Below are positions 3,333 to 19,321 of a stretch of DNA of 44,505 nucleotides, one piece after another; positions within the stretch are counted from its first letter, which is position 1, and every line of letters starts with the position of its first letter. Below the pieces are notes generated by a model. It was not told the DNA's origin. It worked only from the letters and a program-made list of their open reading frames with translations, and did not search any database. The DNA is taken from the IMG/VR virus record IMGVR_UViG_3300036806_000124, positions 1 through 44,505 of that record, one strand, 5' to 3'. Origin of the DNA: a virus. The translations under genes were made by a program, and so were the position numbers.

Positions 3333-4178
3333 CTACGCTGCGGCTGCTATCAGGGTGGTCAATGTGTCAAACTCGCGGCGCTCTTGGACGCCGCCTTTGA
3401 GGAAACGGTCACGCCATGCCGTGTCGGCTTGTAGTTCATCGAGCCGGGACTTCGCGGATTCAACCGTTTTCGGATTGTCTGCACCCTTGCCACCCTCGAC
3501 GAAAGTATCCTCATTCGTCCCGGCGCCAACCTTGCGGAACATTTCCATGATGCGATCGTAGCCAACCACACCCTCCATCGCGGAAACGTCGGCCTCCGAA
3601 ACGCCAAGGCGCTTGGCGCCCTGCATCGCGGTTAACTTGTTGAAATCGAAGTTTGTGCCCCAGCTCTTTTGCAGGTTGGACTTTTGACCGTCGAGCTTGA
3701 CCTTGAGTTCAGCCGCTTCACTTTGGTCCTTGCCCTCCATAAATTTTACTACCGATTGAGCAAAGGCCGTCGCAGCATCCTTTGGGATGTGCTGAGAGAA
3801 TGAAGTCTGACGGATCATGTCCGCGAATGAGTCGTCGATCGCAGCACCGTCCGCAAACTTGACACCGGACAAGTCGTAATCCTTTGCCTCCTTCGGCTTC
3901 CCGAGGCGCGTGTAAACGGTGTTCCATCCGGCCTCATCCTTTGCGTCCTTGGGCAAACGCAACAGTTGATCGGCGGGAACGCCCACGAATTTCTCCGCGT
4001 CACGATGCGCTTTCGCGGCATCCGTGAAGGCGGCGATCGGATCGTCCGATTTCCAGCCCTTGTTCTGCATGTGACCGATCAGGTCGGCATCGAGTTTGCC
4101 CTGATACCAAGGTGTTGCCGGCGCCGTTGTCGTGGTGGTTGTCGTGGTATCTGCCGTCGTGGTCGCAGCGTCAGGCAT
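3333..4178 (-). CDS. Capsid assembly (scaffold) protein
   Basis: A 281-residue, highly charged, helix-rich protein. The N-terminus is a low-complexity Thr/Ala run, then PWYQGKLDADLIGHMQNKGW, a segment seen in scaffold proteins of alphaproteobacterial T7-like phages (dxxxxWxNKGW/DDP pattern). The rest is mostly helical with a small C-terminal domain. It sits between portal and capsid genes, the standard place for a scaffold. It would shape the prohead inside the cell and leave on DNA packaging. The start is ATG 4178, with GGAG six bases upstream; a GTG directly before it is also in frame. It overlaps the upstream gene by 8 bases. Confidence 0.8.
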   Translation of the reverse strand: MPDAATTTADTTTTTTTTAPATPWYQGKLDADLIGHMQNKGWKSDDPIAAFTDAAKAHRDAEKFVGVPADQLLRLPKDAKDEAGWNTVYTRLGKPKEAKDYDLSGVKFADGAAIDDSFADMIRQTSFSQHIPKDAATAFAQSVVKFMEGKDQSEAAELKVKLDGQKSNLQKSWGTNFDFNKLTAMQGAKRLGVSEADVSAMEGVVGYDRIMEMFRKVGAGTNEDTFVEGGKGADNPKTVESAKSRLDELQADTAWRDRFLKGGVQERREFDTLTTLIAAAA

Positions 4179-13531: not shown

Positions 13532-13932
13532 CAATTCGGCTCGCGCGGCTTGAGGATGACGCGACAGCCTTGCGGGGCATTCCCCCATTCGACGACGAGG
13601 CGCCGCATGTATTTCGGGCTATCGTCGATGATGAGGTCGACGCGCCGCAGCCAATCGATCAAGCTTTTCAGGCAGTTATCGAGGTCCATTTTGGTGTGGC
13701 GTTCACTCAAGATGACCGTCAGTTCGAACGCTGCCGGGATGCTTTCGCCGCGCAGCGGGTGATATTCGCGACACTTCGCAGCCAGGAATGATGCGTCGGC
13801 CGCTCGTTCCCACTTGTTGTGCCCGGCGCGTTGTTTCCAATCGACCCGCCGCGTCAGGTTGACGGACGGCGGCGCCGGCAAGTCGAGCTCAATATCGATA
13901 GGTGGCGCGAACGGCCGATCGACCATGTTCAT
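13531..13932 (-). CDS. rusA: RusA-family Holliday junction resolvase
   Basis: A 133-residue nuclease of the RusA family, which cuts four-way DNA junctions. The typical PAPPSVN segment lies near residues 19-25, and the acidic signature [17 protein letters not shown] with VDLIIDDS supplies catalytic aspartates near residues 83, 85 and 103-104. The length is close to E. coli RusA (120 residues). It starts with ATG 13932 in an ATGA overlap with the GapR-like gene. It should resolve replication and recombination intermediates before packaging. Confidence 0.88.
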
Positions 13933-14297
13933 CGGAGGCTGTCGGCCGCTCGTTGGATCGCGCCGGCTGTCGTCTCGACCTTCGAGTCGCCCGAGCTGAT
14001 CGTGACCTTGGTATCGGCAAAATCGCGATTGATGGCGGCCTTGCCAAGCGGCAGGTCTGCGAGCATCCCCAGCGCGTGCATATAGGTTTCGAGGATGGCT
14101 TCCTGTTCGCGGCGCGTCTGCGCGTCGATCTTGCGCAGCCGGATCACGGCCCGCAGCGCTTTCACATCGAAGCCGTTGCCTTTGGCCTCTTTGTAAACAT
14201 CGCTAATATCGCTGGCAGTGGCGGCTTTTTCTTCTTCGAGTCGCTCAATTCGTTCGACGATAGAGCGCAATTGTCCGTTGTGACCGACGTCGGCCAT
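13929..14297 (-). CDS. gapR: GapR/DUF2312-family nucleoid-associated protein
   Basis: A 122-residue protein. Residues ~9-80 ([52 protein letters not shown]) are nearly the textbook DUF2312 domain. Caulobacter GapR of this family binds AT-rich, overtwisted DNA ahead of forks as a coiled-coil tetramer clamp. About 35 extra C-terminal residues are not part of the usual domain. The family is almost restricted to alphaproteobacteria and their phages, which helps place the host. GGGGAG eight bases before ATG 14297 is a good ribosome-binding site. It probably supports phage replication. Confidence 0.92.
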
Positions 14298-15084: not shown

Positions 15085-15294
15085 TCATTCAGCCGCTTCC
15101 GCCACACCGAGCATTGCCGCGGCGGGAATGCCGGTCACCGCAGAAGCTTTCAGCAAATCGTCGCGGTGGGGCGCGCGCTTGCGCTGTTCCCAGCGCGAGA
15201 TCGTTGCGGCTTTAACACCGATCAGATTGCCCAAGCCTTCTTGGGTCAATCCGTGCGCTTCGCGGTAAAGCCGCAGGGGGTGTTTTTCTGACAT
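15085..15294 (-). CDS. Xre/Cro-family transcriptional regulator
   Basis: A 69-residue, single-domain helix-turn-helix protein. The YREAHGLTQEGLGNLIGVKAATISRWEQRKRAP-type layout has the Q (LTQEGLG) and the recognition helix (AATISRWEQ) of the lambda repressor-like fold. Divergent transcription from the second Xre protein over shared operators (15303-15395) fits a CI/Cro switch. Its start codon lies only 9 bases from operator 1, and the candidate promoter would give a leaderless transcript. Which of the two is the lysogenic repressor cannot be told from sequence alone; this one is Cro-sized. Confidence 0.85.
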   Translation of the reverse strand: MSEKHPLRLYREAHGLTQEGLGNLIGVKAATISRWEQRKRAPHRDDLLKASAVTGIPAAAMLGVAEAAE

Positions 15295-17776: not shown

Positions 17777-18436
17777 ATGTCCAAAGTTGCTCAGCTAAAA
17801 TCAGTCGCCCAGCCAGAAACTAAGATCGTAATAACGCCGCCGAAAATGGCGGTTGCGACGGTCAAAATCACTGGCACCGCGCCCTATCTTCAAAATCGGT
17901 TCAGTTCTGAAAATCGCGACAAGATGCTCGAAACACAAAAAGCCGGCTCATCCGTGAAGAAAACGCGGAAAGCCAAGGCGCCTAAAGATTTTGAGAAAGT
18001 CTATCGCGGCTCGATGCACATTTCGCAAGAGGGCTGGCCTGGCATTCCCGCCACGGCGCTGCGTAATGCGATGATTGCCGCCTGCAGGTTGACCGAAATG
18101 GAAATGACGCGCGCCAAAATGTGCATTTTTGTCGTCAGCCAAGGGCTCGATGCTGAAAGCCTTGAGCCATTGATAAAAATAGATGGTGAGCATCGTATGC
18201 ACATCGAGCGCGTCAGTATTGGAATGGGCTCGACCGACCTAGCGGCGCGCGCCATTTTTGAGAAGTGGTCAGCCACCTTTCAAATCGAATGGGATGACGA
18301 TGTATTCAAAGCGCAAGACATCGTGAACCTACTGGCACGCGCTGGTTGGCAGGTTGGCATCGGCGCCGGTCGCCCATTTTCAAAGATGAGCGGCGGCACT
18401 GGCAAGGGCACATTCAAAGTCGATATGGAGGGCTAA
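17777..18436 (+). CDS. Phage recombination-operon protein, possible RAMP/Cas7-like fold
   Basis: A 219-residue protein with AGGAGG upstream of ATG 17777. Three landmarks resemble RAMP proteins such as Cas7: an N-terminal strand with TVKITGTAPYLQNRF, a WPGIPATALRNAMIAACR helix near residues 88-105 (Cas7 proteins have IPGSSLRGxxR), and a glycine-rich end, VGIGAGRPF with GGTGKGTFKV (compare the GGxxSxGxGxF loop). There are no catalytic residues that I can identify. It sits between the exonuclease and the Sak4-type ATPase, where a single-strand-binding protein is often found. The fold is an inference from motif order; the gene itself is certain. Confidence 0.8.
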   Translation: MSKVAQLKSVAQPETKIVITPPKMAVATVKITGTAPYLQNRFSSENRDKMLETQKAGSSVKKTRKAKAPKDFEKVYRGSMHISQEGWPGIPATALRNAMIAACRLTEMEMTRAKMCIFVVSQGLDAESLEPLIKIDGEHRMHIERVSIGMGSTDLAARAIFEKWSATFQIEWDDDVFKAQDIVNLLARAGWQVGIGAGRPFSKMSGGTGKGTFKVDMEG

Positions 18437-18919
18437 GTGAGCATCGAATCTGAACTGCTAATCATCAAAGGCAACAATGAAATGCTGACGGCAGAAGCCG
18501 TCGTTGAGTGGGCGCGCAAGCATCCAGAATCGGCCCTTTATAAAGCGCCGGAATTTCACGGCTGGGATGTGAACAAATCAGCCTATGAACATTGGCTGTG
18601 GGGAGCTCGCAGGCTCATCGCAATCCATGTCGTGTACGAGGACGGCCAGCGCAAGTTCATATCCCTTTCGCTCGATCGCACGAAGGAACACGGAGGCTAT
18701 AGAGACATCGATGACGTGCTCCGTGACAAAAGCCTGCATGACATCATGCTCGCGGATGCCCTGCGGGAATTGGATCGTGTGCAGGCGAGATATGAGCGTC
18801 TTAAAGAATTGACACCTATTTGGCGTGAGGCGGCAAATCTTCGGCGCCGAAATTCCAGAGCAGGCAAAGCGGTGCTTGGCCAAGACCAGCCGAGCAGCGC
18901 GCGGCCAAGAGTAGCATAG
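18437..18919 (+). CDS. Unknown protein of the recombination operon
   Basis: A 160-residue protein with a GTG start directly after the previous stop. The N-terminal part contains LTAEAVVEWARKHPESALYKAPEFHGWD and HWLWGARRLI, a pattern found in hypothetical phage proteins of Hyphomicrobiales. The rest is helical and charged. The last ~20 residues are encoded by the beginning of the AG-lattice repeat, so the natural C-terminus may have been extended by the repeat. The function is unknown. Confidence 0.72.
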   Translation: MSIESELLIIKGNNEMLTAEAVVEWARKHPESALYKAPEFHGWDVNKSAYEHWLWGARRLIAIHVVYEDGQRKFISLSLDRTKEHGGYRDIDDVLRDKSLHDIMLADALRELDRVQARYERLKELTPIWREAANLRRRNSRAGKAVLGQDQPSSARPRVA

Positions 18920-19321
18920 CAGGCATAGCTATGACCGGACCAGCGCAGTCCAGCCGCCCGTAGATCAGCAATGTCCAGCAAAGCAGGCGGAGCACAGCCT
19001 AACTCAGCTCAGTCAAGCGCAGTCCAGTAAAGCGGGCAATGCAACGAACAGCAAAATGTAGTGACGCCTTGTGTAGCAAAGCAGGCGAAGCGCAGTCGAA
19101 CCGAGTAAAGCGCGGTGCAGCTTAGTATAGTAAATCGAAGTGGAGCGAAGCAAAGCAGGCATGGCCCATCGCAGTTCAGCCGTGATTGCCGAGCCGATCC
19201 GAGCAAAACAAAGCAGGCAAAGTTGAGCACAGTGTAGCGCTGCATGGACTAGCAAAACTAAGCAGGCAGTGCATAGCCAAGAGTCGCAGAGTTCAGCAGA
19301 GCGTAGCTAAACAGAGCAGGC
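18855..19321 (+). repeat. 5-bp AG lattice with AGCAGGC phase-shift cores
   Basis: On the plus strand, AG (mostly AGC or AGT) recurs on a 5-bp grid for about 465 bp. AGCAGGC cores are at 18859, 18918, 18982, 19080, 19154, 19212, 19261 and 19315, with AGCGGGC at 19031. After each core the grid shifts by exactly one base, so core spacings are 59, 64, 49, 49, 74, 58, 49 and 54 (5n-1, apart from 58, which has a second slip near 19190). It is T-poor and non-coding except for the end of the upstream gene. The last core sits eight bases before the Sak4 start and may serve as its ribosome-binding site. Confidence 0.85.

Follow-up and report, generated by a model that had tools for sequence, protein, structure and literature searches.

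What does a Cas7-like protein do in a phage that carries no CRISPR locus? The open reading frame (ORF) at positions 17777 to 18436 raises this question, a preliminary description having seen in it a possible RAMP/Cas7-like protein encoded between an exonuclease and a Sak4-type recombinase. The DNA analyzed (the window) is an entire IMG/VR virus record of 44,505 bases. Its proteins include the terminase large subunit, a head-tail adaptor, an internal virion protein, tail proteins, and an integrase (E = 8e-4), and it also encodes a replication protein and a RusA-like resolvase. Because virion and tail genes, integrase, replication protein, and resolvase are all found in it, the window most likely derives from a temperate phage. 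Three features make up the locus, named here after the Viral Interference Programmable Repeat (VIPR) system discussed below:

17777..18436, + strand: vipr, encoding a 219-aa protein of predicted RAMP fold, ATG start, homolog of Vipr, G-loop VGIGAGRP
18437..18919, + strand: vipr-accessory gene (vap-like), 160 aa, GTG start, mostly helical in its model
18857..19321, + strand: predicted vrRNA array, (NN-AGY)n segments split by nine 4-nt units (eight AGGC, one GGGC)

The vipr ORF is a real 219-aa frame on the plus strand, and its translation contains the motifs first quoted for it in the order given: GIPATALR (residues 89 to 96), VGIGAGRPF (193 to 201), and GGTGKGTF (208 to 215). Both neighbors are also there. 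Upstream is an exonuclease-VIII-like gene (PHROG_412, E = 1e-47; Pfam DUF3799 PDDEXK, E = 2.4e-6), and downstream is an AAA_24-like (Sak4-like) gene belonging to PHROG_1366 (E = 6e-47), a family without assigned function, and matching the Sak4 family PHROG_124 at an E value of only 0.19. However, the preliminary description had overlooked the 160-aa ORF at 18437 to 18919, and the region 18857 to 19321, whose frames the ORF finder called junk, is an ordered five-nucleotide repeat array. The absence of CRISPR context was borne out: PADLOC gave no match among eight proteins, Pfam and PHROGs gave no Cas protein among nine, and no CRISPR-like repeats (at least 21 nt, copies at most 300 nt apart) were detected elsewhere in the whole window. 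Elsewhere on the record, the minus-strand frame at 13929 to 14297 encodes a protein whose GapR-like DNA-binding domain matches PF10073 (E = 1.8e-32).

Fold and sequence relatives of the vipr product

No Pfam or NCBIfam family was found for the vipr product or its relatives, and the product falls into PHROG_4652 (E = 3.8e-21), whose function is not assigned. Its AlphaFold2 model, made from a 67-row alignment, has a mean pLDDT of 88.9 and a pTM of 0.80, with a first strand at residues 24 to 33 and a helix at 92 to 105 at the GIPATALR motif. When the model was searched with Foldseek against the PDB, all 50 matches listed were CRISPR effector entries, including Csm, Cmr, type VII, and Craspase complexes, with a best E value of 3.5e-5 and values of at most 0.001 in 32 of the 50. 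VIA-align superposed the model on a subunit of the Enterococcus italicus Csm complex over 148 residues (Z 11.9, rmsd 3.2, 12% identity) and on Staphylococcus epidermidis Csm3 with a Z of 11.7. Structure prediction followed by a fold search, the check proposed with the preliminary description, thus returned CRISPR Cas7-type subunits as top matches. Because the matches from both programs are Cas7-type subunits, the modeling supports the product being a RAMP-fold, Cas7-like protein outside any CRISPR locus.

A closer relative emerged from sequence. By phmmer against all PDB sequences, the single match of the vipr product was 36pp, the Vipr protein of SUSP1 (E = 2.1e-4, 24 bits), and 36pp was again the sole PDB sequence match (E = 1.8e-12) with a 67-row profile of the window protein and its relatives that holds no reference phage. 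A profile containing wV8 matched 36pp at an E value of 4.9e-37, which is inflated because wV8 is a near relative of SUSP1. On these sequence comparisons, the vipr product is homologous to SUSP1 Vipr. The entry 36pp was absent among the Foldseek matches listed, the PDB copy used running to April 2026.

VIPR is described in a 2026 preprint (PMC13142463), and we found no other description of it in the literature searched. According to the main text of that preprint, VIPR is a phage RNA-guided DNA-binding system consisting of a RAMP homolog, an accessory gene, and guide RNAs of 9 to 16 YNNGG repeats; the guides recognize double-stranded DNA with one base skipped per repeat and repress transcription. 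The same text distinguishes seven types. VIPR is a proposed ancestor of CRISPR.

The repeat array and its conservation beside vipr

The array of ~0.46 kb lies between the 160-aa ORF and the Sak4-like gene. It parses to NN-AGY units in eight segments of 9 to 14 units, one of them irregular, separated by eight AGGC and one GGGC:

18866..18920, + strand: guide g1, 11 units (AA GG TT CA CC CG AG GC CA GT AT)
18925..18984, + strand: guide g2, 12 units
18989..19033, + strand: guide g3, 9 units, followed by GGGC
19038..19082, + strand: guide g4, 9 units
19087..19156, + strand: guide g5, 14 units
19161..19214, + strand: segment g6, 4 + 6 units around an irregular 4-nt CGTG
19219..19263, + strand: guide g7, 9 units
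19268..19317, + strand: guide g8, 10 units

Guide g1 overlaps the 3′ end of the accessory ORF, and the last 20 residues of the accessory protein have the lowest confidence in its model (blocks of 70 and 65). Over the 93 units, the triplet composition is A 0.75 at the first position, G 0.85 at the second, and C 0.68 or T 0.23 at the third, and the two variable positions are near even in base composition. The four top 5-nt autocorrelation windows of the entire record are all in the array region, where the local array score reaches 133.1, compared with maxima of 15.5 over 20 record shuffles and 26.1 over 200 region shuffles. The locus therefore has tandem 5-nt repeats with two hypervariable bases, which take the form GGY/NN in most relatives and here the form AGY/NN, which we counted as a VIPR repeat under the wording "a related consensus" in the main text of PMC13142463.

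Related loci were collected by two alignment-based scans, one of genome contigs, which yielded 17 loci, and one of viral contigs, in which 199 loci were confirmed and 80 of them kept. Together with other fetched loci and the window, these gave 108 entries, reduced to 103 by removal of five copies of a single locus (L002, L004, and L030 to L032); a few of the 103 are still near-identical to each other. In 95 of the 103 loci, an array scoring at least 25 lies within 0.9 kb of vipr and on the same strand as vipr, and the array score of shuffled related loci (three shuffles each) never exceeded 16.4. The loci below 25 are L009, L012, L026, L027, L056, L057, L096, and L101, and several of their contigs are cut short. 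L056 and L057 have an array-like signal of 33.5 upstream of vipr on the opposite strand (3133 to 3515 in L057), unlike the other loci.

The gene linked to vipr is that of the 160-aa accessory family, found beside it in 91 of the 103 loci. The window protein belongs to PHROG_15946 (E = 6.7e-11), and its AlphaFold2 model (pLDDT 90.5) had no Foldseek match at an E value of 0.001. Members of the family share no common Pfam family and gave no PADLOC or PDB-sequence match, and hhalign of the accessory protein against the ORF following vipr in wV8 gave a probability of 2.7, which is no match. According to the main text of PMC13142463, the accessory proteins of VIPR systems seem to take part in interactions with DNA.

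These neighbors bear on the role given in the preliminary description, that of a single-strand nucleic acid-binding partner of the adjacent exonuclease and Sak4-like recombinase. In favor of that role, the RAMP fold binds nucleic acid in CRISPR complexes, and the genes here are adjacent and codirectional. The fold part of the proposal is supported by the modeling. The recombination part fails on the neighbor counts: within the fetched flanks of vipr relatives, an exonuclease gene was found in none of 104 loci (only L030 to L032 and the window being left out of this count) and a Sak4-like gene in two, so there is no conserved linkage with either, and the array and the 160-aa gene recur instead. 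We consequently rejected the recombination reading, which we regard as extremely improbable. Since it is the accessory gene and the repeat array that recur, the role of the vipr product points to RNA-guided DNA binding of the VIPR kind.

The array could also be selfish or low-complexity DNA lying beside vipr, from which no guide RNA is made. We found no excess of promoters or terminators in the region, and no Rfam family matches it, as this explanation would allow. Against it, the motif stays constant while the NN bases turn over, the array keeps to the vipr strand in 95 of 103 loci and is absent from shuffles, and SUSP1, in the account given in the main text of PMC13142463, has similarly designed arrays that are transcribed and bound. 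The turnover is seen between near relatives: the vipr genes of L067 and L076 are 90.9% identical in DNA and those of L070 and L072 90.4% identical, with no guides in common within either pair, and L048 and L050 (94.1%) share 5 of their 14 and 15 guides. No window guide is common to L029, L003, L034, L035, L036, or L042. A constant scaffold with changing variable letters is as expected of a guide array, and we consider selfish DNA a very improbable account of it.

A candidate target of guide g1

Six of the eight window guides (g1, g2, g3, g5, g7, and g8) were scanned exactly against viral contigs, using 8- or 9-unit cores with a skip of 1. In all, 29 contigs were matched. The 16-base core of g1 occurs in ten contigs, and in two of these the three outer units match as well, giving 22 of 22 bases. 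In the other eight, 16 to 18 of the 22 bases match, and the outer three units are complete in none. The two records with the full match (L162 and L164, also fetched as G028 and G029) are 100% identical over the pieces compared and are therefore one element seen twice. In the same contigs, the best g1 scores at skips of 0, 2, and 3 were 15, 16, and 14 of 22, versus 22 of 22 at a skip of 1. By our own estimate (seed matches × 4^-(number of outer bases)), the chance of the full g1 match is ~0.002, from about nine distinct core matches and six outer bases, and ~0.01 over all scans.

The g1 site is at 15263 to 15294 of G029, on the minus strand, just ahead of an AAA_25 helicase gene. It occupies the end of an opposite-strand open frame of 114 aa, which there reads ITWALRGWNPF, and each base skipped in the match is codon position 3 of that frame. 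The element, of ~16 kb, encodes a tyrosine integrase and an AlpA-like excisionase and is flanked by lysine-2,3-aminomutase-like and lysyl-tRNA-synthetase-like genes, and a neighboring host gene is 65% identical to a Bradyrhizobium gene. No terminase, portal, or tail families were detected among its scanned ORFs, and one frame has a weak match, below the cut-off, to a T7 capsid-assembly protein. By its gene content, the element appears to be integrated and satellite-like, which is not proof that it is a satellite. At the DNA level, the window shows no similarity to this element.

No full-length target was found in the viral-contig scans for g2, g3, g5, g7, or g8, and so one of six guides was matched. 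Guide g2 has six 8-unit seed matches, none full length; g3 has six, with the last unit matching in none; g7 has four, its last unit never fully matched; and g8 has two, neither full length. The single 9-unit seed match of g5 lies in a portal-like frame (L149) and is complete in the seed (18/18), but the flanking units fail, and it was taken as chance. Matches of g3 in L174 to L176 were also set aside: they have a mismatched end unit in common, and in this collection chance alone would give matches of 16 bases.

Broader searches were less informative. No convincing target was found for 845 guides in 1.52 Mb of fetched phage DNA with arrays masked. Matches of at least 90, 85, and 80% numbered 13, 126, and 526 at a skip of 1, compared with 6, 57, and 292 at skip 0, 1, 56, and 310 at skip 2, 12, 72, and 360 at skip 3, and 5, 97, and 487 at skip 4. 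The excess at steps of 3 and 6 looks like codon periodicity, by which the small skip-1 excess is confounded. A skip-1 excess in the fetched target contigs was discarded as biased, these contigs having been picked by skip-1 seeds of the window's own guides. Guides g1, g2, and g5, with two to three mismatches allowed, had no match in 385 alphaproteobacterial genomes. The target protein had none in 297 genomes, a search that was without a positive control and so says little.

In summary of function, the window locus is very probably a VIPR system of a temperate phage that would repress genes of competing mobile elements. This identification draws together the RAMP fold, homology with the Vipr of SUSP1, the cassette conserved among relatives, the grammar of the repeats, the guide turnover, and the one full target match, of 1-nt-skip type, to mobile-element DNA. 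A related possibility is that the RNA-guided system regulates the phage's own genes or those of its host, for instance in the control of lysogeny, and does not attack rivals. A guide starting AG GA TC TA is kept in five loci of the GGY clade (L058, L062, L067, L072, and L076) whose arrays are otherwise different; a fixed, perhaps conserved target would explain this retention, although we detected no site for that guide in the DNA fetched. The main text of PMC13142463 also reports prophage induction when VIPR targets a lysogeny regulator. However, the window guides have no convincing match in the window itself, and the sole full-length target lies in an unrelated integrated element, and we consider it unlikely that the system regulates self or host instead of attacking rivals.

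If the locus is a VIPR system directed at rivals, small RNAs would be made from the downstream array, as transcription of VIPR arrays in the main text of PMC13142463 leads us to expect, and Vipr, as a single-domain RAMP protein, would line up along them as a ribonucleoprotein by analogy with SUSP1. We suppose that one Vipr subunit would occupy each five-nucleotide repeat. The conserved triplet (AGY here, GGY in relatives) would be held by the protein, leaving the two variable bases to pair with double-stranded DNA with one target base skipped per repeat, and DNA-bound Vipr would block transcription of rival mobile-element genes, these last two steps again following the account in the main text of PMC13142463.

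Scaffold triplet and relation to described systems

Eight Vipr proteins (the window, L003, L029, and L033 to L037) accompany arrays in which the first triplet position is A in 42 to 86% of units. The eight group together as a single clade (support 100/99) that lies within the GGY relatives. At residue 156, 59 of the 60 GGY rows have Arg and all eight AGY rows have Ala; at residue 197, in the G-loop, 56 of the 60 GGY rows have Glu and the other 4 Asp, whereas all eight AGY rows again have Ala. This pattern suggests that residues 156 and 197 recognize the first guanine of the triplet and that guide RNAs are not interchangeable between AGY and GGY systems. Because the AGY clade has a single origin and 13 columns in all change with it, we treat the link between residues and triplet as a hypothesis. 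L020 and L091, with a GT-type triplet that retains the first G, also retain Arg156 and Glu197; phiHSIC, with few first Gs, has Lys at 156 and Asp at 197; and the SUSP1-like wV8, which falls outside the window's clade, has Ser and Asp. Tentatively, and with somewhat less than even confidence, we propose from these comparisons that in one VIPR branch the scaffold code and the protein reading it may have changed together, the code going from GGY to AGY, and that the prey of this branch may include satellite-like integrative elements. If true, this would provide orthogonal programmable VIPRs, possibly yielding mutually independent programmable DNA binders, and the concerted change of a triplet and two residues makes the reading of a guide scaffold by a RAMP protein directly testable.

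How does the locus compare with known systems? Like the type II VIPR of Escherichia phage SUSP1 (36pp), as presented in the main text of PMC13142463, it has a single small phage-encoded RAMP-fold protein with one accessory gene, flanking tandem repeats of 5 nt in which two bases vary, and a 1-nt-skip match to a mobile element. Unlike SUSP1, its triplet is AGY and not GGY, and it has eight short guides with AGGC spacers and no Rfam match in place of RNAs of ~100 nt with a structured tail. Its Vipr sequence is distant (24 bits by phmmer) and in a separate clade from that of the SUSP1-like wV8, whose following ORF does not match the window partner. The locus accordingly lacks the GGY triplet and the SUSP1-like Vipr and partner of type II. 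The fold is shared with Csm3 and Cmr4, the Cas7-type RAMP proteins of type III CRISPR (Z 11.9, rmsd 3.2, 148 residues), but at 12% identity, with no CRISPR-like repeats or other Cas-like neighbor, and in company with a 5-nt-repeat array; the CRISPR array and other cas genes of a class 1 CRISPR-Cas locus are not present. Closer are the locus of cyanophage Cy-LDV1 (BK059895.1), with 41.5% Vipr identity, and those of Gordonia and Mycobacterium phages, with about 28 to 35%, all having the same accessory family and AGGC-type spacers. Their triplet, unlike that of the window, is GGC, and their genes are annotated "hypothetical protein."

The window locus is thus an already described kind of system, VIPR, in a clade with an altered triplet and with predicted prey, the AGY clade being set apart from described VIPRs by way of the main text of PMC13142463 and not its supplement. 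Together with its relatives, the locus contributes a clade whose scaffold triplet differs, a clear spacer-divided array grammar, and a conserved partner. A further contribution, from outside the SUSP1 and P. fulva clades, is a predicted natural target to which the gapped code applies.

Arrays among the relatives vary widely in size and triplet. Very large ones are found in the close window relatives L035 (5487 to 8089), L034 (5173 to 8604), L033 (5315 to 6582), and L042 (1175 to 3010), reaching up to 3.4 kb by the parser with 18 to 45 guides of at least six units; their triplets are mixed A/G, and some 5-unit words are common to several of these loci. The GT-type triplet (C/Y-NN-GT) of L020 (4524 to 6446) and L091 (2040 to 2606) is accompanied by CAGT-like spacers, and the L020 array has some 395 units by the parser. 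In Mycobacterium phage Donkeykong (L008), gp48 (3507 to 3893), annotated "hypothetical protein," lies almost entirely within an array parsed at 3520 to 3869; because its frame sits almost wholly in the array, gp48 probably represents a guide array read as protein.
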